Assembly: GCA_021129775.1 (NCBI GenBank)
Contig: JAJOKP010000072.1
Span: 1 to 49,742, forward strand
Length of the DNA: 49,742 nt
From: Clostridiales bacterium
GTDB taxonomy: Bacteria > Bacillota > Clostridia > Peptostreptococcales > NVVX01
Direction of reading: 5' to 3'
In this document: piece by piece, positions 491-47,240 of the stretch
Numbering within the stretch: position 1 is the first letter of the stretch
Layout: the number at the start of each line of letters is the position of its first letter
Notes under the pieces: model-generated
What the model saw: the letters and a program-made list of their open reading frames with translations, nothing else
Told to the model about the DNA's origin: nothing
Databases searched by the model: none
Translations under genes and position numbers: made by a program

Positions 491-1027
491 TTGATTGAAA
501 GGAAGAAAATAGTGAGTGGACTTAGAATGATATTTGTATCTGATGATCTGAGGGTTTTTAAAATTTCTCAGCCCCAAAATAGTATATACAATCCTGTAAA
601 ACAACTGTCAAACGCAACTGTCTTAGAAGTTGGTTTTTATTACGAGACATACGAGAGAAAACCAGTTAAGCTTTTGAATGTCTTTTTCGACAGACTACAG
701 CTTAATTCAAATGGACAGTATTTGTTAACAGAAGACGAACTAGGTCGAAGAACAAGAAATTTCAACCTATTCGCATTCGATACTCCTGAAACTTTCAGCA
801 AAAGTGAAAGACAGATTCCAATACCTTCAACTTTAGAATTTCCAACATCAAGAGAAAAAGAAATCATAATCGAATACATGAAAGATAAATTGCCACAGTT
901 GTATCCAGAGGGTTGCTATGTTATAGAGAAAACTATACAAGGAATAAAAGAAAAAAATGAAAAGAACAAAAATTTTGTAAGAGAAGTAGCCAAGCGTAGA
1001 GCTTTAAGCAAAGGAAGAGGGATTTAA
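491..1027 (+). CDS. Hypothetical protein, 178 aa
   Basis: The ORF starts at TTG 491, about 10 bases after AGGGA; an in-frame TGA six bases upstream rules out an earlier start, and an ATG at residue 13 is the alternative. The protein is soluble, with no signal peptide or membrane segment, and ends in a basic, Lys/Arg-rich tail of about 30 residues that could bind nucleic acid. I do not recognise a family. It is bounded on both sides by structured non-coding spacers (299-452 and about 1030-1130), an arrangement seen in gene cassettes and other mobile single-gene units. Confidence 0.5.
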   Translation: MIERKKIVSGLRMIFVSDDLRVFKISQPQNSIYNPVKQLSNATVLEVGFYYETYERKPVKLLNVFFDRLQLNSNGQYLLTEDELGRRTRNFNLFAFDTPETFSKSERQIPIPSTLEFPTSREKEIIIEYMKDKLPQLYPEGCYVIEKTIQGIKEKNEKNKNFVREVAKRRALSKGRGI

Positions 1028-1030
1028 ATA

Positions 1031-1047
1031 CCGCTGCTTAACAGCGT
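1031..1047. repeat. Short hairpin at start of downstream spacer
   Basis: A perfect small hairpin, CGCTG-cttaa-CAGCG, follows four bases after the stop codon of the 491-1027 gene. It has no T-run, so it is a poor terminator. The GCTTAAC inside it fits the same RYYYAAC pattern as GCCTAAC in the spacer before the gene, so the gene may be flanked by related junction sequences. The rest of the spacer to 1140 contains nothing I recognise. Confidence 0.35.
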
Positions 1048-1163
1048 GTTCGTAAAATAGCGAGTAGCAGTAGGATTGCCACTTTACAAAAATGCAAAAC
1101 GTCAACTAGCATAAATCACCAGTTTAGATAGTAAAAATATTCTGTCATGAAGGGAGATTTTAC

Positions 1164-1692
1164 ATGAAGTATATAGCTTGTTTGATAATAAGTCTTGGTT
1201 TGATGACTATTGCGATTTCAGGATGCGATAGAAGTAATAGTAGTGTAGGTAGTTAATGATAGATTTGCAGTATATATTGGTGAACAGGAAACTTTATCTA
1301 GTGAATATATTCTAAGAGAGAAACCGATTTTTACAGATGAAGATATTAAGTCATATGAATGGGATATGCAAATCATTATATTTAAAAACGAGTATTTAGA
1401 TCAACTAGATGTATGTAATGTTGAGGATAAATATTATATTGGTGGTTCTAGGTTATTAGGTGCTCGTCCAAGGGATAAATTTTACGTTTATATTAATGAT
1501 GAACTAATTTATGATGGATTCTTTATGCAATCAATGGTCTCATCATTTTACCCAACAGGTGCAGTTGTATTTGATGTTATAAATGGAATACAAATAAAAT
1601 ATAACGATATAATAGATGGTAAAACAGAAGATTTGAGATATGATAGCAGAATTAAGGAGTTAATGAAGAAGAAGGGTTTGCTTCGAGATTAG
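1164..1692 (+). pseudogene. Small lipoprotein split by a frameshift
   Basis: ATG 1164 follows a GGGAGA ribosome site and opens a lipoprotein signal peptide: a basic N terminus, a hydrophobic stretch and the lipobox ISGC. That frame stops after 30 residues at TAA 1254-1256. In the next frame a coding-like sequence continues immediately (DRFAVYIGEQETLSSEY...) through the ORF-track segment 1366-1692 to the stop at 1692. Joined across a one-base shift between about 1240 and 1257, the two give a single lipoprotein of about 175 residues. The mature part has no motif I recognise. As written, the cell would make only the truncated 30-residue leader, so this is probably a pseudogene or an assembly error. 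Confidence 0.7.
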
Positions 1693-1826
1693 TGGAATAG
1701 TCCGTGGTTTACATCAGTGAACAATATATTTCAAAACAGATTTAGAAGAATAATGTTGCCATTAAGAAAACCAAGGTTTGTAATCATCCTTGGTCTTTTT
1801 AATGACTATAATTATAATAAAGTGGG

Positions 1827-2807
1827 TTACTTAATATTAATAATTACAGTTCCCATTCCTGTCTCAATACGTATTTCAGATGTTGGGTTTTCTCCAATAT
1901 CGCCTTCTAAATCCCAATTATTCTTTTTAACGTTGTTTAGTGTAAAATCAATATCTGTAGTTCCCATGCCTGTATTAATTTTCAGTCTTGTGTTGGTATC
2001 TTGGGGTAAAGATAATTCGACAGTTCCCATACCTGTTTCTAATATCCAGTTTGCATTCTTAGCTATAGCTGAATTGACGTTTATTGTACCACTTCCAGAC
2101 TCTACATTTAAATCATTATGAATATGGTTTATGTCTATACTACCTAACCCTGTTTCAACTGACACGTTTCCATGTATATTATTTGCAGATACAGATCCAC
2201 TGCCAGTATTTATTGTAACATCTTATTGCACGTCATCAACTACAATGCTTCCAAGTCCAGTATTCAAGTTAATAGGACCTTTAATATTTTCAATTAATAT
2301 ATCTCCTAAACCAGTGTTTGAAATAAGTGTTGTTTCAAATGGAGTAACTATATCAAAACTTATACCTACACTGTGTTTTTCAGGCAAATTATACTTTTCA
2401 AGATTACCCAGTATTATTGTGCTTCCATTCACTTTAATTGGCGGATCTTCTAAGATTTTATTTAGTAGTTTTTTTGCTTCTTCTTCGTTTTCTGCTCCTA
2501 CATTAATAGTAATATTAAGATTCACTTCACTATCACTACTGCTTCTTACGGTTACTTCGCCCAAACCAGTGATAACTTCTAGTTCAACTAACTCATCCAC
2601 AGAAATTGTTTTCTCAAAAGATTCTTCTACTTGTACCTTGTTACCGAAAAATCCTTGCGCGTCGCTAATATTATTCAAGTTTATATTTATTTCATCGGGT
2701 AAATTAATAGCGGGAAAGTCAATGGTGGGTAAATCAATAGTACATGCAGATAACATAGTAACCAAAACAAGTAAAACTAAGATTTTAAAAATTCTAATTG
2801 ATTTCAT
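1827..2807 (-). pseudogene. Toast-rack/DUF4097-type surface lipoprotein with in-frame stop
   Basis: The N terminus is a lipoprotein signal (MLSAC lipobox near residue 21). The body then carries short Gly-rich beta repeats typical of DUF4097/toast-rack proteins: TGLGEV, TGLGDI, TGLGSI, TGSGSV, TGLGSI, SGSGTI, TGMGTV, TGMGTT, TGMGTV. Such repeats build a beta-solenoid on the outer face of the membrane. A single TAA near 2223 interrupts the frame in the middle of the repeats, and the same frame carries on to 1827, giving 326 codons in all. It lies 38 bases after the ABC permease, with a GGGAGTGAG ribosome site, so it is the last gene of the GntR-ABC operon. The truncated 194-residue form might still be exported. 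Confidence 0.75.
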
Positions 2808-2845
2808 TTATCTCACTCCCAATTTTTAATTTTGTGAAAACTGCA

Positions 2846-3613
2846 CTACAAGTTTAATTTTTTATCTATCAAAGCACCTGATAAAAAAGTCATAGCAACT
2901 ATTAGTATTATTCCTACCAAGTAACTAAAAAACATACCAGCTTCAGTTAGATTCTGTAACTGTATTGGCCCAGCTTGAAACGTCCAATTAAATATAGGGA
3001 TATTTGTCACAGCATCAATGAATATTAGCAAGACGCGAGCAAATAGGTCATAAAGAATATGAAGTGCTAAAAATACCAAGAAAGCTAGCGATTTTTTAAA
3101 CTTAACATTAGCAGCCAAAGTTTTGGTAAATAGTGCTGATATAAAAAGAATTAAAATATGTTTAAATAAACCTGTCATTTGTTCTAAGAGTTGAGAAATT
3201 AACCTGATTGGTGACAGCATGGAATAACTGGGGGTAAGGACTGTAAACATTATGCTCTGAACTAATACTAAGTGGATTGCAAATGATATTATAGCAAATA
3301 TTAAGACAGTCAGTAATTTAGATGCAATAAAAGCGAACCCACTTATTGATGTTGTAAAAGCGACTCTTCCTTCATGGCTAGAAAATTCGGACCACATTAT
3401 TTTATAAGTTGCGTAAAAGAAGTATATAACTAGCCCTACTATAGGTAGACCTCCTAAAAAAACAGTTGATATTAAAAGATTAAAACCATTTACTCTTCCA
3501 AATATATCACCTGTAAGTGCAATTCTCATCAAAACAAACATAAAAAACATCACTACTCCTAGAATTAGCAACTTTTGATTTGCCTTAAGTTCATACTTTA
3601 AAAGTTTAAGCAT
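2846..3613 (-). CDS. ABC transporter permease (ABC-2 type)
   Basis: About 255 residues with six or so hydrophobic segments (for example around LILGVVMFFMFVLM, LPIVGLVIYFF and ILIVAMTFLSG), typical of an ABC-2 type export permease. The ORF track starts at 3631, but GGAGGTG lies just before the internal ATG at 3613 (MLKLLKYELKANQ), which is the better start. The start codon lies within the last codons of the ATPase gene, so the two are translationally coupled. With the ATPase it should form a full exporter of the YtrA-regulated class. The substrate is unknown; relatives act on peptide antibiotics or cell-envelope compounds. Confidence 0.85.
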   Translation of the reverse strand: MLKLLKYELKANQKLLILGVVMFFMFVLMRIALTGDIFGRVNGFNLLISTVFLGGLPIVGLVIYFFYATYKIMWSEFSSHEGRVAFTTSISGFAFIASKLLTVLIFAIISFAIHLVLVQSIMFTVLTPSYSMLSPIRLISQLLEQMTGLFKHILILFISALFTKTLAANVKFKKSLAFLVFLALHILYDLFARVLLIFIDAVTNIPIFNWTFQAGPIQLQNLTEAGMFFSYLVGIILIVAMTFLSGALIDKKLNL

Positions 3614-4307
3614 TTTCAAACACCTCCACATACATTTTAACTATTGATTTATTGTTTTGTTCTCTTAGTTCTTCGATATTCTTCTTAAGTAAAACATGAC
3701 CTTTCGACAAGAAAATTAAATCTTCAAGCAAGTATTCAACATAGTTGACGTGATGTGTTGAAATAAGCATACAGCTGTCATCTCTTTGAGAATTAATTAT
3801 GGTTTCAATTAATTTTTCACGTGTCTTTATGTCTATTCCATCGAAGGGTTCGTCTAGTAAATAGAGCTTTGCATCTCTAGCTAATGTTAGAGCTAATTTA
3901 AGGCGGGCTTTCATTCCCTTTGACAATTTTTCAACAACATCATTATTGTTAAGATCCATAAATTCCATAGTTTCGCTCGCTTTTTGCATGTCAAAATCTT
4001 CGAAGAAATCGTGGTAGTACTCAATTGTCTCTCTAACAGTCATCCATGAATATAGGTCACTTCTATCTGGTAAATAAGCGACAATGCGCTTAGTCTTTGT
4101 TGAGGGTTTATGTCCATCAATTAGAACCTCTCTACTATAACTACTGATTAGTCCTGCCAATATTTTAAGTAAAGTTGTTTTTCCACTAGCATTTGGTCCT
4201 AATAACCCGTAAACCTTCCCTTTTTCTAAAGTCAAATTAATAGAATTGAGTGCATTTGTTGGTCCGAAGTTTTTTTGTAATTGTCTTATTGTCACGATGT
4301 TATCCAT
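3606..4307 (-). CDS. ABC transporter ATP-binding protein
   Basis: 233 residues with every ABC hallmark: Walker A GPNASGKTTLLK near residue 37, signature LSKGM near 129, Walker B LYLLDEPFDGID near 150 and an H-loop STHHV near 185. The Ala in the Walker A loop (usually Gly) is a tolerated variant. The start ATG overlaps the end of the GntR gene by 8 bases and the end overlaps the permease start, giving a tight operon GntR-ATPase-permease-lipoprotein. It powers the neighbouring permease at the cytoplasmic membrane. Confidence 0.92.
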   Translation of the reverse strand: MDNIVTIRQLQKNFGPTNALNSINLTLEKGKVYGLLGPNASGKTTLLKILAGLISSYSREVLIDGHKPSTKTKRIVAYLPDRSDLYSWMTVRETIEYYHDFFEDFDMQKASETMEFMDLNNNDVVEKLSKGMKARLKLALTLARDAKLYLLDEPFDGIDIKTREKLIETIINSQRDDSCMLISTHHVNYVEYLLEDLIFLSKGHVLLKKNIEELREQNNKSIVKMYVEVFENA

Positions 4308-4672
4308 TTTCCATTTCCCCCTTCAAGAATTTTTCTAATTCTTCAATCATTTGCTTATTACCGTATCCTAACACCCTTAAATCATTAACAAAAGTTGAAA
4401 TCTTGAATGAAATCCTTTCTTCTCTGATTCGTGAAATCATCTCCTCACTCTCTGTAATAAAAGAGCCAACTCCTTTTTTTGAAAAAATAATTCCATCTTT
4501 TTCTAAAAGTTGATAAGTTTTTGCTATTGTATTATGATTGACACGTAATTTTTGTGCTATATCCCTAAACTGATTCTAGCTTATCTGCTCTTTTATATTC
4601 TCCTGTAGCTATTTCTAATTTAACATGATCTATAATTTGCAGATAGATGGGCATGTTATCTTTAAATTTCAC
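4300..4672 (-). pseudogene. GntR (YtrA-type) transcriptional repressor, frameshifted
   Basis: The minus strand reads a typical YtrA-family N terminus from GTG 4672 (PIYLQIIDHVKLEIATGEY), with the winged helix continuing as IAQKLRVNHNTIAKTYQLLEKDG and a C-terminal helix of about 50 residues. Between the halves an extra base in GTTTAGG (near 4568) creates a TAG stop; removing one T restores the frame (VRDIAQ). Length 373 bases equals about 124 codons plus one extra nucleotide. This family represses its own ABC operon by binding inverted repeats at the promoter, so loss would leave the downstream ABC genes derepressed. The stop overlaps the ATPase start. Confidence 0.8.
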
Positions 4673-4924
4673 AGTATCGCTTCCCCGTGTACTATGTATG
4701 AAGACAAATTAGTATGTCTTAACACAGTTAATTTTTAGTTCTTTCTCATGTGCATAAATTCAGTTGACTAATATTTTCAGAAGTTTAGCAAACTATACTT
4801 GCTATTTTGTTCTACAAAGTAGGAGTGCTTAGAACTAATAATTACCTTATGACATTCAGTACTACACATATAGCACACCACTATCTGTATGATGTTAAGT
4901 CAGTAAATAGAATTTTAAGCGACT

Positions 4925-4953
4925 TTGCACAAGATATCTTTATTTGCTATAAT
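4925..4953 (+). promoter_or_regulatory. Sigma-A-type promoter upstream of alkD-like gene
   Basis: TTGCAC and TATAAT are separated by exactly 17 bases, followed about 57 bases later by an AAGGAG ribosome site and the ATG at 5010. The rest of the 4673-5009 gap contains only the short, unconvincing ORF 4807-4998. Confidence 0.65.
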
Positions 4954-5009
4954 AATGTTAGTGCAAGTAAAAGGAGATTAGATGGCTTACCTGGGTGAAA
5001 GGAGTTCAA

Positions 5010-5810
5010 ATGAAAAATTATAAAAGAATCTTCGATTCAAACCATGGGGATAAACCTAGAGATATTTTTAAGGATAATTCTCTTGAAACTTTGTCAGGCA
5101 TTCATCCTGCCCCACAAGGGAGACAGGTTTTCTGCCTACGTCGTTACAAAATAGACATTGTAAAAAAAGTAAATGAAGAACTCGCTTTATTTGAGTGCAA
5201 CAAGCGCTACAAAACAGGCGATGTTAGGAAAGTAAGTGTTAAGGTTTACAGACTAATCAAAAACTAGCCATTTGAGAGTATATTGGACCTATGTGAGGAA
5301 CTTTTAGAGGAGCGGTCATGGGCTATGGCTGTGATAGCATATGATATAGCTTTTAGAGAAAGAAAGAATTACACAAGAGAAACTTTCAATAGATTTGAAA
5401 AGTGGCTAATTAAGTACGTGAGAGATTGGGGAGATTGTGATGATTTTTGTACTCACGCATTCGGCGCGCTCTTAGCACAGTATAATGACTTGTTTGTGAA
5501 AGTACGTAAATGGTGCGACAGACCTGAATTTTGGGTAAGAAGAGCTGCAGGAGTTATCTTAATATATCCAATGGCTAAAAACGTGTATGGAGAAATAGAT
5601 CCGCTTAAAATTACTAATGCTCTTATGAATGATGAACATTATTTAGTGTTGAAAGGCTATGGGTGGATGTTAAAAGTGTACGGATATAGAGAGCCTAAGA
5701 AATTAGAAAAATACTTATTTGAGAATGTACAAACTATGCCAAGAGTTTCGTTCAGATACGCTATTGAGAAATTGGATGTTGATACAAAGAAAAGCTTGAT
5801 GAAAAAGTAA
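5010..5810 (+). pseudogene. AlkD-type DNA alkylation repair protein, interrupted
   Basis: Residues encoded at 5283-5810 match the C-terminal two thirds of AlkD-like HEAT-repeat DNA glycosylases: WGDCDDFCTHAFGALL, FWVRRAAGVILIYP, DEHYLVLKGYGWMLKV and MPRVSFRYAIEKL. The same frame continues upstream of a TAG at 5265-5267 into DIVKKVNEEL and GDVRKVSVKVYRLIKN, which fit the N-terminal helices of this family, so the stop is a nonsense mutation. The first 45 or so residues from ATG 5010 (AAGGAG site) look unrelated and overlap a sequence repeated at 7449, so the original start may have been the ATA before GACATTG near 5151. The family excises bulky or cationic alkylated bases. A functional product is unlikely. 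Confidence 0.7.
5071..5152 (+). repeat. Dispersed repeat, copy A
   Basis: A 40-base block (beginning AGGATAATTCTCTTG and ending CATTCATCCTGC) matches 7449-7488 at 36 of 40 positions. Weaker similarity runs on to a shared CAAAATAGA. Copy A is inside the 5' part of the alkD-like ORF. Both copies precede remnants of other genes, so this looks like debris of one duplicated segment. Confidence 0.6.
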
Positions 5811-5817
5811 ATTATGA

Positions 5818-6180
5818 AAAATAAGCAAAATTAAAGAATCCAAACTAGGATACAGAGCAATGGACATTTCTCAACTACTTGAAAATATCGTTTATTTAGA
5901 ACTTAAAAGGTGAGGTTACACTGTATACGTCGGAAAAGAAGGTGAGAGAGAAATTGATTTTGTCGGTGTAAAACGTGAAGATAAGATTTACATATAAGTA
6001 AGTTATTTGCTTTCAAGTGATAAAACGATAGACTGCGAATACAAACCGCTCTTAAATATTCGCGATAATTTTAGGAAGTACGTAGTATCATTGGATAAAA
6101 TGCAATCGGACAACTATCAGGGGATTAAGTGGGTCAATGTGATAGAGTTTTTAAAGTCAGATAATTGGACAGAGCTCTAA
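5818..6180 (+). pseudogene. Remnant of AAA+ ATPase with DUF4143 C-terminal domain
   Basis: In one frame the sequence reads a DUF4143-type C terminus: MDISQLLENIVYLELKR, then TGA, then GYTVYVGKEGEREIDFVGVKREDKIYI, then TAA, then VSYLLSSDKTIDCEYKPLLNI and on to a natural stop at 6178-6180. The phrases ENIVYLEL-RRGY, EIDF and KIYIQVAYLL are characteristic of these ATPases, which allows the two stops to be read as mutated Arg and Gln codons. The whole N-terminal P-loop domain is missing. It is not listed in the ORF track because of the stops. Confidence 0.75.
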
Positions 6181-6328
6181 AGAAAGGCTGTGACCTAGTC
6201 AAAAGTTTTATGAAAAAGCAATTTATCATAACTGTATTATACAAGCGAGATTGCGAGCCGAACGGCCCTCGCCTGCAAAAGTGCATTAAATTTTTTAACA
6301 CTATGTGTCGAAAAACAGGAGGAATATT

Positions 6329-7120
6329 ATGTATAAACTACTAGCCCTAGATGTTGATGGTACGCTGCTTAATAGTCGAGGAGAAGTAAGTGAGAAGACG
6401 ATAGAAAAAATCAGAGAAATTGTAAATAAAGGAATATTAGTTCTTATTTCTACTGGAAGACCTACTCAGGGAACAGTGGAACTTTTTGAAAAACTAGAAT
6501 TAAAAATGCCAGTAATCGCGTATAATGGCGCAAAGATAGTAAATCTGAATACGGGTGAAATATTACTTGAACAGAACCTAAGAGGCGTAGACGTTAAGAA
6601 AATAGTTGAAATTGGTGAAGAACTTAAAACGACAATAATCATTTGGTCTAAAAATCAGTTGTATTCAAATATAATGAATGATAACGTAACTGCGTATAAA
6701 AAATTGTCGGGGGTAGAGCCAATAATAATTGATAATTATGAAGATATTATTCGACAAGGAGCAACAAAAGTGTTATGGATAGATGAAGTAGAAGTAATAG
6801 CAGAATTTCAAAAACTTCTTGATACAAAACTTGATGCTGATGTGAATTATTGTACTTCCAAGCCTTATTACTTAGAATTTATTGATGAAAGCGTCTCAAA
6901 AGGCAGGGCACTAAGCATTCTTTGTGATAGATATAAAATAAAAAGAGAAGAAATTATTGCTATTGGTGACGGGCAAAATGATATAACAATGCTTGAATTT
7001 GCAGGGGTTGGTATTGCAATGGGCAATTCTTCGCAAGAAGTTAAAGACAAAGCTGACTATGTGACTGCCTCAAATGACGAAGAGGGAATAGCATTGGCTA
7101 TTGACAAATATTTTAGATGA
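6329..7120 (+). CDS. Cof-type HAD-IIB hydrolase, copy 1
   Basis: 263 residues of the Cof/HAD-IIB phosphatase family. All four motifs are visible: LDVDGTLLNS (nucleophile Asp near residue 6), STGRP, the Lys in SKGRA, and GDGQND near residue 213. Such enzymes dephosphorylate sugar phosphates, nucleotides or pyridoxal phosphate in the cytoplasm, and the substrate cannot be read from sequence. The ORF track begins at 6305, but AGGAGG lies 7 bases before ATG 6329, which also matches the start of the paralogue at 29151. The two copies are alike over their full length. Confidence 0.88.
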   Translation: MYKLLALDVDGTLLNSRGEVSEKTIEKIREIVNKGILVLISTGRPTQGTVELFEKLELKMPVIAYNGAKIVNLNTGEILLEQNLRGVDVKKIVEIGEELKTTIIIWSKNQLYSNIMNDNVTAYKKLSGVEPIIIDNYEDIIRQGATKVLWIDEVEVIAEFQKLLDTKLDADVNYCTSKPYYLEFIDESVSKGRALSILCDRYKIKREEIIAIGDGQNDITMLEFAGVGIAMGNSSQEVKDKADYVTASNDEEGIALAIDKYFR

Positions 7121-40446: not shown

Positions 40447-40883
40447 ATATCCGACGCAATAATTATCTTAGCAAGATTATTAGTGAAGTAAAATTCTTTT
40501 TTTCCTTGCAAAAACATTGTGTTTATTGCCCAAAAAGCATGCATGCTTTCTCATATCAAGTTAAACATATACTGAACTCATATATAATATATATTTAACA
40601 TCATATTAAACTAAATCAGATATGTGTCAAGATTTTGTTTTAATCTAATACGTCAATTTCATATTTTTTGCTAAAACGAAAAGCAGGAGAATAAGTAGTA
40701 CTGTACAATGAATGTACTAATTTCATTTATGTGAGAAAACATTGTTGACAATGATAGTTTCAAAAGCTCCACGAATCAATATAGAGAACAATTTAGAGGG
40801 TTCATGAAAATTCTTGTACTTAAGGATTTTGTTTTATATAATGATAAAATAGGATTTGTATCGCTTTAAACGGAAAGTTCAGC
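40447..40883. other. Intergenic region, AT-rich
   Basis: No ORF with a ribosome site is seen. It holds a GCATGCATGC palindrome near 40540 and a very AT-rich tract near 40580 that could contain the amidohydrolase promoter. A GCAGGAGAATAAGTA-like sequence near 40682 faintly resembles ones near 25206 and 32751. Confidence 0.4.
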
Positions 40884-40908
40884 TAGACAAGCCCCTGTCC
40901 TACTGTCT
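40884..40908 (-). repeat. CAGACAG-family repeat, inverted copy
   Basis: Read on the minus strand, CAGACAGTAGGACAGGGGCTTGTCT matches the core of the hairpin after pglZ (CAGACAGGGGGACAGGGACTTGTCT) at 22 of 25 positions. Related pieces lie at 25144 and 36986. Confidence 0.55.
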
Positions 40909-40933
40909 GTATTATTTGAAAGAGGTGTTTTTT

Positions 40934-41548
40934 GTGAGACTTTGGACTATCAAAGATATAAATGGATATAATGAATTAAAAGAAACTAAGATTTTACGTG
41001 GTAAAACTGAATATGTTGATGATGAGTTTAGGATGGCATATAATTGGATGATGGAGCAGATGAAAAATAAATTGAAATTTTCATTGACTAATTCATCAAC
41101 ATATCCAGTTTGGGCTTGGTATCAGTGGGGAGGAGCTAATAAAAAAAAGCCAGATTTAAGATGTAGTGGTTATGAGAAAAAAGGAAAGAAATTATTTAGA
41201 ATTGAAACTGAAATTGAAAAGGATAAAGTACTGTTATCTGATTTTGATTTATTTCATTATGTATTGAATTATTGGTATTTACCTAAAGATGAAGAAGATC
41301 AGAATATATTCGATAAGGAAATGAAGAAAAATAATATAACACTATTTGATTTGCAGAATTTTAATGAGAATTCAAAACTACTAGATGAATTGAGATTCAA
41401 AGTAGAAAAAAGTTGGAATCAAATATTTGATTTAGATATATATAATGAATATGTAGATACTACTGAACGTGAAAAATCAATACAAGCGACATTTTTGGAA
41501 CTACGATGGGAACAAGTAATTAATGTAAAAGAATTTATTGCAAGATAG
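40934..41548 (+). CDS. DUF3841 domain protein
   Basis: 204 residues. It begins RLWTIKDINGYNELKETKILRG and contains MAYNWMMEQMKNKL, YPVWAWYQWGG, KKPDLR and VLLSDFDLFHYVLNYWYLP, the typical DUF3841 phrases. The family is cytoplasmic, usually encoded as a single gene, and of unknown function. GTG 40934 follows GAGGTG; the ORF-track start at 40856 is too early. The protein is intact. Confidence 0.85.
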   Translation: MRLWTIKDINGYNELKETKILRGKTEYVDDEFRMAYNWMMEQMKNKLKFSLTNSSTYPVWAWYQWGGANKKKPDLRCSGYEKKGKKLFRIETEIEKDKVLLSDFDLFHYVLNYWYLPKDEEDQNIFDKEMKKNNITLFDLQNFNENSKLLDELRFKVEKSWNQIFDLDIYNEYVDTTEREKSIQATFLELRWEQVINVKEFIAR

Positions 41549-42618: not shown

Positions 42619-42636
42619 CTTGAATAAATTAGCTTG

Positions 42637-42668
42637 AAATTTCTTGCGCAAGCAAGAAATTTTTTTGT
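42637..42668 (+). terminator. Terminator after EFR1 gene
   Basis: AAATTTCTTGC and GCAAGAAATTT form a perfect 11-bp stem around GCAA; the right arm runs directly into a T-tract. Confidence 0.88.
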
Positions 42669-42893
42669 TCTGATTTTGCATAACTGAAATGAAAATTTAA
42701 CTTTTTCTTAACACTACCTTTACCTTAGACAACCTAAAGTTAACATTGTTTTATTATACTAAAAGTGAGAATAAGTTTTGAAAATTACTGCGTTGGGATA
42801 ATGCAAGACAAAAAGGGGGGATAACACCAATCTGGCTAGAGGCAAGAATTCGGTAAGTAAAAGCACGGTAAAAATTGAGGAGGTATGGTAAAC

Positions 42894-45800
42894 ATGTTCA
42901 AAACGGTAAAAAGCAATATGTTAAAAGGTATAATTGGATTAGGGGTATTATTATTTGTTTTTGCAAGTATGTTTAGTATCTTTTTAACACCAGATGCACT
43001 GCAGAGCACAAACACAGAAGAAGTTAGTGTGGTTTATACAGAGCAACGCAACGTAATTTTTATCCATCCAGATGGAGCGAATGCTTCACATTTCACGGCT
43101 GCGCGTCTTTTTTTGCATGGCCCCGATGGGGAATTGAATTGGGATAAGCTACCAAATGTAGCGATATACAAGCCGCATATTTTAGACAATCTTCAAGCAG
43201 GATCAGTTGGTGGGGCAGTCGCTCATGCATCTGGTATTAAGTCAAACTTCAATTACTATGGTTTGGGTCCAGACAGAAATGAACTAACAACTATTACTGA
43301 AGAGGCTAGAGATGCAGGATTTGCTACAGCTTTAGTTAATAGTGGTACGATTACCGAACCAGGTACAGGTGTTTTTGTGGCGAATGTTGTATCTCGTAGA
43401 AATCATGCGGAAATCGCTCGCCAAATTATAGAATCAGATGTAGATGTAATACTTGGTGGCGGTGAACGTTGGTTTTTACCACAAGGAGCTACTGGAGTGC
43501 ATGGAGAAAGTGCACGTGAAGATGATCTTGATTTAATTCAAATTGCTAAAGACAAAGGATATACTGTTGTTTTTACAAGAGAAGAATTGTTAGCACTTGA
43601 TTTAGATAAGACTGAGAAACTGCTTGGTCTTTTTGCTCATCACCATACATTTAATGCTAAAACTGAAGAGCATCTTCTTGAGAATAACCTACCTCACTAC
43701 TGGGATTATAGTCCTACGCTAGCCGAAATGGTACAGGCAGCAATAGCAATCTCCTCTCGTAATGAAAAAGGATTTTTGCTAGTAGTGGAAGAAGAAGGTA
43801 CTGATAATTTTGCAGACGGAGCTAATAACGCTGAGGCAACTATGGTTGCTCTTGGGCGCGCAGACGACGCTATTGGCACAGCCATTGCTTTTGCTAAAGA
43901 AAGCCCTGGAACATTGGTAATTACAGCTGCTGATTCAGATGCTGGTGGTATGCAAATACTTGCTCCAGGACCTAGTAGAATAGATAGATGGGAAGGATTT
44001 GTCCCAGAAACAACAAATGCACCAGGGTGGCATGATCCATATGAAAACATGGCATCTGCTGATGGAATTGGCGGAACTGGCGGCAAACCGTTTAGCACAC
44101 CTTGCGGCAAATGGCAGTTTGGCATAAGTTGGGCTGGACAGAGTGACTTTGCTACTACTATGATTGCCAGAGCTTTTGGGGCTCGCGCAGAGTTAGTAGC
44201 TGGTAACATTGACAACACAGATATTTATCATATTATGAGAAAGGCTTTAGGTCTAGGAGAGAAGTCTCAAAAGATTACTATTATTCACACTAGCGACTTT
44301 CATGGGAGAGCGATACCGTATGGTAAAGCAGATGTTGAAGGTAAAGTTGGTGGACTCGCTCGTATTGCAACTGTAGTAAACAGAATAAGGGATGAAGGAC
44401 AGCCTGTATTGCTTCTTGATGCTGGAGATACAATTCATGGTACTGGGATAGCAGCTGCGACTAAAGGGAAAGTGTTAATAGATGCTATGAATCTTATGGG
44501 CTTTAATGCAATGACTGTAGGTAATCATGAATTCAATTGGGGGATGGAACCCTTATTTGCTAGTCGAGATGAAGCAGAATTTCCGTTTCTTTCTGCTAAT
44601 TTATTAGAAACGGCGACTGATGAATTATTGTTTGAACCTTATAAAATTATTGAGCAGGGTAATGTGAAAATAGGAATATTGGGTTTGTCGGCAAGAGCAA
44701 ACCGCCACCATGCGCCTGAAGTCAGAGAACTTGTGACTAATTTAGATGCAATTGAAGTCGCTAGTGAAATAGTTCCTGAGTTGCGCGAGAAAGTTGATAT
44801 ATTAGTAGTGCTTTCACATTTAGGTCATTTTAATGACCGTTTTTTAGCAGAATCAGTAGATGGTATTGACCTTATTTTAGGTGGGCATACTCACTGGCTA
44901 TTAACTGAACCAATAGAAATAAATGATACTTTGATTTTTGAAAACGGCTGGGGTGGCGAATATTTAAGTCGCATTGATTTGACAATTAGTGAAAATACTT
45001 TGGTAAGAGTTAACCATCAGCTAGTTCACATAAATGATTCAATAAAACCGCATATTGAAGTAGATAGAGTAATCAACAGAGCTTACGAAAAAGAAGAGAG
45101 TTTAACGAAGGTGATAGGAATATCAGAAACTGATATTGCAGGAGAGAAATACAACCCGTTTTGTCCTATAATGATGACATATATACCAGACGCCGAACCA
45201 GGTTCTTTTTGGTACAAACTAAACGCCGATATTAAAAGAGGAGCAATTACTTTTAACGATAGGCGTATGTCAACTGCTCTTTGGGAAACACCGCTAGGCA
45301 ATTTCATTGCAGATGCAATGCGCTATGAAGGTAAAACGGATATAGCTGTACAACGAGCAGGGCACATCCGCGAAGGGATAGTTAGTGGTAATATTAATAT
45401 GGATGATCTATACAGAGCCTTCCCTTATGATCACGAAATTGTTGTTTATGAATTGACGGGGGAACAATTAGTACAATTACTAGAGTTAAGCGTTAGCAAT
45501 TGGCCGAGACTACCCAATAGCAATTTTTTACAGGTATCAGGTGTAGAGTTTAGTTTCGATCTTTTACAAAATATAGGTGAGAGAGTGTTTGATATCAGTG
45601 TTAATGGAGACGAGCTAAATATAGATAAAAAATATACAATTGCAGTTACCTTGACTTCAGTTGAGCAGGTGCGTAGTTTGCGCGAAATATTCGAACAAGG
45701 CAGATTTAGGCGCAATACTAGAGTTTTCGTACGAGATGCGATGGCAGCGTACTTAGCTGCGCACACGCCAATTGCACCAAAAGTTGAAGATAGAATAGTA

Positions 45801-47240
45801 TTATCCGATGCACCTGGTGACTTTACAATATTGCACACAGGCGATATTCATGGGCATTTAGAAGCGTTTAAACCAAGAGGGGCAACAGAAGCTATTGGTG
45901 GAATATCTCGCATAGCAAGTTTAGTTACAGAAATAAGAGAAGCTCAGCCAAACACAATCTTGCTTGACGCTGGGGACACAATACACGGAACAAACATTGC
46001 TAATTTAACTTTTGGGGAATCCGTAATCGCTGCAATGAACGAAATTGGTTATGATGCGATGGTTGTTGGAAACCATGATTTTAATTACAAATTAGATATA
46101 TTAGAAAAAAGAGCAGAGCAGGCTAATTTCCCAATTCTAGCTGCAAATGTACGCTTTAAAAATGGAGAAGCAGTGCCATTTCTTAAGCCATACACCATAA
46201 TTGAAAAGGAAGGTGTTAAAATTGGTGTAATCGGAGTAGTAACCACTTATACTCCAGTTGTAACACATCCAGACAATGTTGCCGATTTAGAGTTCTTAGA
46301 TCCAATTAAAGTTACTAGAGAAATAGTTGAAAAATTGGAGGATAAAGTCGACACAATTGTTCTTTTAGCACATATTGGAACAGAAGAAGAGAAAAGACTA
46401 TTTGATTCAATATCGGGAATTACTATTTCGGTTAGTGCTCATACACATGAAGAACGCCATGAAGTGAATGAAGACGGCGTTATTTTAGTTGACTCTGGTG
46501 CATACGGAACAGTGCTAGGAAGACTAGATGTCGCACTAAAAAATGAGGAAATTACAAACCACAGACATCAATTCATTGCTATAGATTCAACAATTGCTAA
46601 TTGCGAAAAAGTAGAAAAAGTATTAAATCCTTTTAGAGAAAAATTAGATGATAAACTTAGTGCAGTAATTGGCGAGACAACTATCTTACTTGATGGTGAA
46701 AGAGCAAATGTACGCTCTAGAGAAACTAATATGGGAAATTTAGTTGCAGACGTTTTGCGACAAGAAACAGATGCTGATATTGCAATTCAAAATGGTGGCG
46801 GAATACGTGCAAACATAGAAGTAGGAAAAATTACATTAGATCAAATCTTTACTGTGTTGCCTTTTGACAACTATATAGTAAGTTTAGAACTGACTGGAGA
46901 GCAAATATGGCAGGCTTTAGAAAACGGATTACGTTATTATCCAAAGCTATCTGGTCGCTTCCCGCAAGTATCAGGGATGAGTTATGCTTTCGATCCTTCA
47001 AAGCCAGCTGGCGAACGCATTATAGAAGTTAAAATAGGAGGAAAAGTAATTGATTTAGCTAAAACATATAAAGTTGCTACTAATTGTTTTATGGCTGGCG
47101 GTGGTGATGGATACGCGATGATGAAAGACGCACGCATGCTTATAGAAACAGGGACTTTTATGCGTGATGCAGTAGCAGATTATATTCGTCAACAAGGAAT
47201 TATTAATCCTCAAACTGAGGGAAGAATTACGAAACAATAA
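42894..47240 (+). CDS. Exported triple phosphatase: alkaline-phosphatase-like + two 5'-nucleotidase units
   Basis: 1448 residues. A signal peptide or anchor (LKGIIGLGVLLFVFASMF) is followed by an alkaline-phosphatase-like domain (about 50-455), with VIFIHPDGAN, SVGGAVAHASGIKS, LLVVEEEGTDNFAD, VITAADSDAGGM and the family-like end NIDNTDIYHIM. Then comes 5'-nucleotidase unit 1: SDFHGR near 467, DAGDTIHG, GNHEF, SHLGH, GGHTHW and a C-terminal domain near 795-960. Unit 2 follows: GDIHGH near 980, DAGDTIHG, GNHDF, AHIG, AHTHE and a C-terminal domain with NGGGIR near 1300. By eye the His ligands of classical alkaline phosphatase are replaced. No sorting signal is seen at the C terminus. GAGGAGG lies 10 bases before ATG 42894. 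Likely role: phosphate or nucleoside scavenging outside the membrane. Confidence 0.88.
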   Translation: MFKTVKSNMLKGIIGLGVLLFVFASMFSIFLTPDALQSTNTEEVSVVYTEQRNVIFIHPDGANASHFTAARLFLHGPDGELNWDKLPNVAIYKPHILDNLQAGSVGGAVAHASGIKSNFNYYGLGPDRNELTTITEEARDAGFATALVNSGTITEPGTGVFVANVVSRRNHAEIARQIIESDVDVILGGGERWFLPQGATGVHGESAREDDLDLIQIAKDKGYTVVFTREELLALDLDKTEKLLGLFAHHHTFNAKTEEHLLENNLPHYWDYSPTLAEMVQAAIAISSRNEKGFLLVVEEEGTDNFADGANNAEATMVALGRADDAIGTAIAFAKESPGTLVITAADSDAGGMQILAPGPSRIDRWEGFVPETTNAPGWHDPYENMASADGIGGTGGKPFSTPCGKWQFGISWAGQSDFATTMIARAFGARAELVAGNIDNTDIYHIMRKALGLGEKSQKITIIHTSDFHGRAIPYGKADVEGKVGGLARIATVVNRIRDEGQPVLLLDAGDTIHGTGIAAATKGKVLIDAMNLMGFNAMTVGNHEFNWGMEPLFASRDEAEFPFLSANLLETATDELLFEPYKIIEQGNVKIGILGLSARANRHHAPEVRELVTNLDAIEVASEIVPELREKVDILVVLSHLGHFNDRFLAESVDGIDLILGGHTHWLLTEPIEINDTLIFENGWGGEYLSRIDLTISENTLVRVNHQLVHINDSIKPHIEVDRVINRAYEKEESLTKVIGISETDIAGEKYNPFCPIMMTYIPDAEPGSFWYKLNADIKRGAITFNDRRMSTALWETPLGNFIADAMRYEGKTDIAVQRAGHIREGIVSGNINMDDLYRAFPYDHEIVVYELTGEQLVQLLELSVSNWPRLPNSNFLQVSGVEFSFDLLQNIGERVFDISVNGDELNIDKKYTIAVTLTSVEQVRSLREIFEQGRFRRNTRVFVRDAMAAYLAAHTPIAPKVEDRIVLSDAPGDFTILHTGDIHGHLEAFKPRGATEAIGGISRIASLVTEIREAQPNTILLDAGDTIHGTNIANLTFGESVIAAMNEIGYDAMVVGNHDFNYKLDILEKRAEQANFPILAANVRFKNGEAVPFLKPYTIIEKEGVKIGVIGVVTTYTPVVTHPDNVADLEFLDPIKVTREIVEKLEDKVDTIVLLAHIGTEEEKRLFDSISGITISVSAHTHEERHEVNEDGVILVDSGAYGTVLGRLDVALKNEEITNHRHQFIAIDSTIANCEKVEKVLNPFREKLDDKLSAVIGETTILLDGERANVRSRETNMGNLVADVLRQETDADIAIQNGGGIRANIEVGKITLDQIFTVLPFDNYIVSLELTGEQIWQALENGLRYYPKLSGRFPQVSGMSYAFDPSKPAGERIIEVKIGGKVIDLAKTYKVATNCFMAGGGDGYAMMKDARMLIETGTFMRDAVADYIRQQGIINPQTEGRITKQ

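Follow-up and report, generated by a model that had tools for sequence, protein, structure and literature searches.

A predicted exported protein of a Clostridiales bacterium joins an alkaline phosphatase-fold module without zinc-ligand histidines to two 5'-nucleotidase-type units

The window, by which we mean the whole 49,742-nucleotide stretch of Clostridiales bacterium DNA analysed here (contig JAJOKP010000072.1, assembly GCA_021129775.1), carries a gene whose product is comprised of an N-terminal hydrophobic segment, an alkaline phosphatase (AP) module and two consecutive units of Metallophos plus 5_nucleotid_C, as assigned by Pfam and with each unit also confirmed separately (Table 1). 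The ORF listing gives one unbroken plus-strand frame from 42885 to the stop at 47240, corresponding to 1451 aa, and residue numbers are counted from this start throughout. The in-frame ATG at 42894, giving 1448 aa, is rated the better start, as the GAGGAGG ribosome-binding site ends 10 nt before 42894 but only 1 nt before 42885. Neither a frameshift nor an internal stop was found in the fusion frame, and a search of the same genome recovers it intact; the single 1448-residue ORF claimed in a preliminary description of this DNA is thus borne out, as one frame with no stop and five Pfam domains. The GC content of the gene is 0.39, rising to 0.43 in the AP part. A recent foreign origin, suggested by this high GC, was rejected because third-position GC is normal, and the high GC therefore reflects amino-acid composition.

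Table 1 Features of the fusion gene and its upstream region
Feature	Position	Strand	Description
Terminator-like hairpin after the upstream gene	42636-42663	+	12-pair stem, then T-rich tail
Putative PHO box TTAACTTTTTCTTAACACTACCTTTAC	42697-42723	+	three TTWAC repeats, 11-bp period; 170 bp upstream of the fusion gene
Ribosome-binding site GAGGAGG	42877-42883	+	read directly from the sequence
Fusion gene	42894-47240	+	1448 aa (1451 aa if started at 42885)
Hydrophobic export/anchor segment	42927-42986	+	residues about 15-34; hydropathy
AP-fold module	43047-44252	+	residues 55-456; Pfam, AlphaFold, structure search
Metallophos, unit 1	44277-44897	+	DFH, GDT, GNHE, SH and GHTH two-metal motifs intact
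5_nucleotid_C, unit 1	45273-45650	+	divergent: QRAGHIR for NGGGIR, no GGDGY loop
Metallophos, unit 2	45822-46451	+	motifs intact
5_nucleotid_C, unit 2	46665-47126	+	canonical: NGGGIR, GGGDGY

The hydropathy maximum, with a value of 2.6 averaged on 19 residues, lies at residue 16; past residue 60 the next best value is 1.1, and the segment at about residues 15-35 is the only strongly hydrophobic one in the protein. From this segment we infer that the fusion protein is exported. Pfam detected neither a LysM nor any other wall-binding domain in the window protein, so that N-terminal membrane anchoring and release are both possible. The Pfam domains and the hydrophobic segment support the earlier view of a single exported chain bearing three phosphohydrolase modules, with export being a prediction.

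In UshA and CD73, the NGGGIR and GGDGY motifs hold the nucleoside. Unit 2 possesses both pocket motifs together with the two-metal motifs and is a full-length match to canonical 5'-nucleotidases (2.5e-73 to 2z1a), whereas unit 1, which matches the same family (PF00149 + PF02872; PDB 2z1a, 3ivd, 1ush) in both domains, keeps all two-metal motifs but has lost NGGGIR and GGDGY. Since these motifs are lost, the substrate of unit 1 probably differs and unit 2 alone resembles an ordinary 5'-nucleotidase; of the two complete 5'-nucleotidases originally described, unit 2 therefore stands as such and unit 1 does not. The chain also departs from UshA and CD73 in placing two units behind an AP module. A second 5'-nucleotidase in the same genome (contig C40, positions 2598-3996; L002, L003) is split into two overlapping frames with a stop and is probably frameshifted or mis-assembled.

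The tandem arrangement recalls B. subtilis YfkN (PRK09419), an extracellular, phosphate-related protein that likewise contains two Metallophos plus 5_nucleotid_C units. In the window protein, however, no CpdB-like first unit was seen and an AP module is added, and for both units the matches to 5'-nucleotidases are better than those to CpdB/YfkN phosphodiesterases. Scores against the YfkN-type NCBIfam (PRK09419) are far below the cut-offs (484/1646, 411/2554 and 403/2801 bits), and no NCBIfam cut-off, YfkN-type models included, is passed by unit 1 or unit 2 alone, leaving the resemblance to the YfkN-type proteins named in the preliminary description a loose one. Membership in the UshA-like PCGU family was rejected, as the over-threshold score is the sum of the two units and neither passes alone.

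Residues 55-456 match Alk_phosphatase (PF00245) with an E-value of 4.7e-49 and a score of 167.9 bits against a gathering threshold of 24.4, covering profile positions 2-422 of 423. Modelled alone by AlphaFold with a 64-sequence alignment, the module reaches a pLDDT of 93.1 and a pTM of 0.94; this alignment was used in place of one with only 9 sequences, which gave a poor model (pLDDT 65). The best 50 PDB matches to the model are all APs, with a probability of 1.00 and query-normalised TM-scores of about 0.73-0.80. Structure prediction thus bears out the first module as an AP fold, and residues 50-455, for which a different fold had initially been allowed, match AP structures in the AlphaFold model.

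The catalytic roles of the E. coli PhoA residues are well established, and we mapped them onto the window protein by motif and alignment, with profile-profile alignment yielding the same pairing. D63, S107, E158, G160, R171, E302, D307, D311, D350, S351 and D421 occupy the positions of PhoA D51, S102, D153, T155, R166, E322, D327, H331, D369, H370 and H412, respectively. The module therefore shares the fold and the D51, S102, R166, E322, D327 and D369 core of PhoA (PF00245; PDB 1alk), including the serine nucleophile (S107) and the phosphate-binding arginine (R171), but differs from it in the replacement of H331, H370, H412, T155, D153 and D101. Judged by its aligned zinc-ligand positions, it is not a classical zinc AP (PhoA, EC 3.1.3.1).

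Replacements at positions 155, 331, 370 and 412 are shared by an 81-sequence set consisting of the window module and the 80 best-ranking loci out of 388 that were confirmed after scanning 84,980 species genomes. S102 (81/81), R166 (80/81) and D369 (81/81) are kept, whereas T155 is replaced by Gly, H370 by Ser and H412 by Asp in all 81; position 331 is Asn in 78, Asp in two and Gly in one, and not one of the 81 sequences has His at 331, 370 or 412. D51, E322 and D327 are also kept, although conservation at these positions and at E324 is partly circular because the peptides used for the scan covered them; positions 102, 155, 166, 331, 369, 370 and 412 lie outside those peptides. A pattern-free HMM search across 399 genomes from the phylum recovered 21 classical APs, all with the three histidines (21/21), versus 8 variants with Asn at 331 and Asp at 412, one of which has Ile at 370 and one of which is partial. 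The HMM scores drop from 260 bits to 182 bits between variant and classical APs, and no sequences intermediate between the two were seen in these 399 genomes. In a tree, a fully supported branch separates 64 variant sequences from 10 classical APs of the order, the exact depth of this split being uncertain because both branches are long. The earlier label "alkaline phosphatase" consequently holds for the fold but not for a classical zinc enzyme, as all three zinc-ligand histidines are missing and the module belongs to a separate branch.

In other genomes the variant mostly stands alone as an exported protein of about 440 aa, and its hosts include cyanobacteria, Ignavibacteriota, Bacteroidota, Nitrospirota, Chloroflexota, Zixiibacteriota, Bipolaricaulota, Pseudomonadota, Bacillota and others. 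Among the copies examined, the standalone relatives showed no conserved gene partner, and the metal-transporter genes clustered about 4 kb from a single cyanobacterial variant were not found again beside the others. No description of a PhoA branch without these histidines was found in the open-access literature searched, and the branch, although widespread, seems to be undescribed. Two published enzymes considered as relatives were rejected: Psip1 is a beta-propeller like PhoX (PMC11098088), and the Haloferax polyphosphate-degrading enzyme appears unrelated (PMC13318637). In some Bacillota MAGs (L058, L062), a Cu_amine_oxidN1 domain lies N-terminal to the variant AP.

PF00245 matches occur in 38 of the 395 genomes examined from the window's order, and the matching frames are at most 614 aa long except for those of the window (1453) and of a congener (1391). 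The congener protein (L020, positions 2357-6493; NVVX01000075.1, 'Alkaliphilus sp. NORP52') is comprised of an OB-like region, SNase, two AP modules and LysM, with AP modules of the variant type that are about 69% identical to the window AP; the genus therefore uses the AP module as part of two distinct multi-domain exported proteins. The tandem modules of the congener are very alike and probably arose by a recent internal duplication. Its layout resembles that of B. subtilis YhcR, a nuclease plus nucleotidase surface protein, with AP replacing the nucleotidase, whereas a nuclease domain is absent from the window protein. The presence of SNase and LysM beside a doubled AP in the congener points to nucleic-acid scavenging. 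The claim of an unusual architecture holds within the collections searched: AP followed by two Metallophos plus 5_nucleotid_C units had no second case in the genomes, no plasmid record covered 80% of the fusion protein, and no description of the architecture was found in the open-access literature searched.

PhoP boxes of Bacillus consist of TT(A/T)AC(A) repeats with an 11-bp period. The PHO box-like element upstream of the fusion gene is the only perfect match in the window, where 0 are expected, and the genome as a whole has 4 perfect matches versus 0 in a reversed control. Allowing one mismatch gives 21 versus 7 in the control, a modest specificity; boxes of this kind precede pstS in both this genome and the sister (congener) genome and are conserved between the two. 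Of the three perfect sites elsewhere in the genome, one precedes genes for an ABC transporter and a solute-binding protein, which form a plausible Pho gene set, and two precede genes without a clear phosphate link. The SNase-AP-AP gene of the congener has a weaker version of the box about 110 bp upstream. The terminator-like hairpin of Table 1 follows a gene for a flavodoxin-like/ferredoxin protein and suggests that the fusion gene probably has its own promoter, although such matches are no more numerous in the region than chance would give. From these elements, the fusion gene is probably under phosphate-starvation (Pho) control. One of the perfect sites of this genome, a PHO box-like triple repeat (contig C57, positions 7020-7046; L149, L152), lies about 75 bp before an EAL-CBS-GGDEF gene, a possible phosphate/c-di-GMP link. 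A DUF3841 protein of unknown function is encoded at 40856-41548, upstream of the fusion gene.

We propose, with a probability of roughly 0.6, that the fusion is a Pho-regulated exported phosphoesterase whose three catalytic modules release phosphate extracellularly from nucleotides and further organic phosphates. Phosphate starvation would induce the gene and the product would be exported; unit 2 would act as an ordinary 5'-nucleotidase through two-metal, water-attack hydrolysis, and unit 1, with its two-metal centre kept and its pocket changed, would probably act on other phosphoesters. The AP module would hydrolyse phosphomonoesters, probably via S107 with R171 holding the phosphate, and its metals would be coordinated through the oxygens of Asp, Glu and Ser rather than, as with zinc, by histidine, a replacement that makes Mg2+, Ca2+ or Mn2+ likelier than Zn2+. 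We infer both the activity and the metal from the active-site residues, and it is just as conceivable that phosphatase activity disappeared along with the three zinc ligands. Complete processing to nucleosides and phosphate on one scaffold, the rationale first suggested for the fusion, would need no more than a 5'-nucleotidase; the AP module therefore probably widens the substrate range. A parallel for the proposed scavenging is found in B. subtilis, where YhcR increases when phosphate is limiting and where YhcR, NucA and NucB together recover phosphate from extracellular DNA; a role as partner has been proposed for YfkN (PMC11458576).

The fusion itself, as an observation, is far beyond chance. 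An accidental join between two adjacent genes of a metagenome bin, or another assembly artefact, might be suspected from a draft source (161 contigs, 87% complete) and from an architecture not found elsewhere in the genomes searched; however, the frame reads through short linkers without a stop, the third-position GC of all modules (0.22-0.27) is typical of the window (median 0.26), and the congener independently carries the same AP module within another long multi-domain protein, making such an origin highly improbable.

A more substantive alternative is that the AP module is dead or ligand-binding, binding phosphoesters or aiding dimerisation while the nucleotidase units do all the chemistry, as the absence of T155 and of all three zinc-ligand histidines would allow. 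We consider this unlikely, given that the serine nucleophile, R166, D51, E322, D327 and D369 are kept, that the replacements are fixed across many phyla whereas dead sites usually drift, and that in most hosts the branch constitutes a whole standalone exported protein. The module might instead act on sulfate esters, phosphodiesters or phosphonates through a one-metal, sulfatase-like site. Sulfatases have Asn at the H370 position and one Ca2+ bound by oxygen ligands, a pattern that the S370 of the variant APs resembles, but the phosphate-binding R166 is conserved, a direct reading around S107 reveals no apparent sulfatase maturation motif, and the module is found together with nucleotidase and nuclease domains; such a specificity seems quite doubtful. 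Beyond the preferred reading of the fusion as a phosphate-scavenging phosphoesterase, we suggest more tentatively that the variant may constitute an undescribed zinc-free AP branch, with an all-oxygen Asp/Glu/Ser/Asn site for Mg2+, Ca2+ or Mn2+, which this lineage has built into multi-enzyme surface proteins that take phosphate from nucleic acids and nucleotides.

The zinc-dependent PhoA and the iron/calcium-dependent PhoX frame much of the debate on metal limits to phosphate acquisition in aquatic and soil environments. A broad branch that is annotated as alkaline phosphatase but has no zinc-ligand histidine would be miscounted in surveys of metal limitation, and through it one can ask directly whether the AP fold works with oxygen-only metal ligands. 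We regard this branch, which is absent from the preliminary description, as more interesting than the architecture, the fusion illustrating how such modules are combined for phosphate scavenging.

Classical APs also occur in fusions. In several genomes of the same phylum, proteins of about 950-1120 aa (L052, L053, L054, L055, L056 and L057; Pfam on L053 and L054 only) combine a classical AP with a C-terminal Exo_endo_phos domain. L053 and L054 resemble the window protein in fusing AP to another phosphoesterase/nuclease, but their partner is an EEP domain and not a 5'-nucleotidase, and their AP is classical, with His ligands. Another classical AP (L051, positions 854-3784) bears a C-terminal CBM9-like carbohydrate-binding domain.
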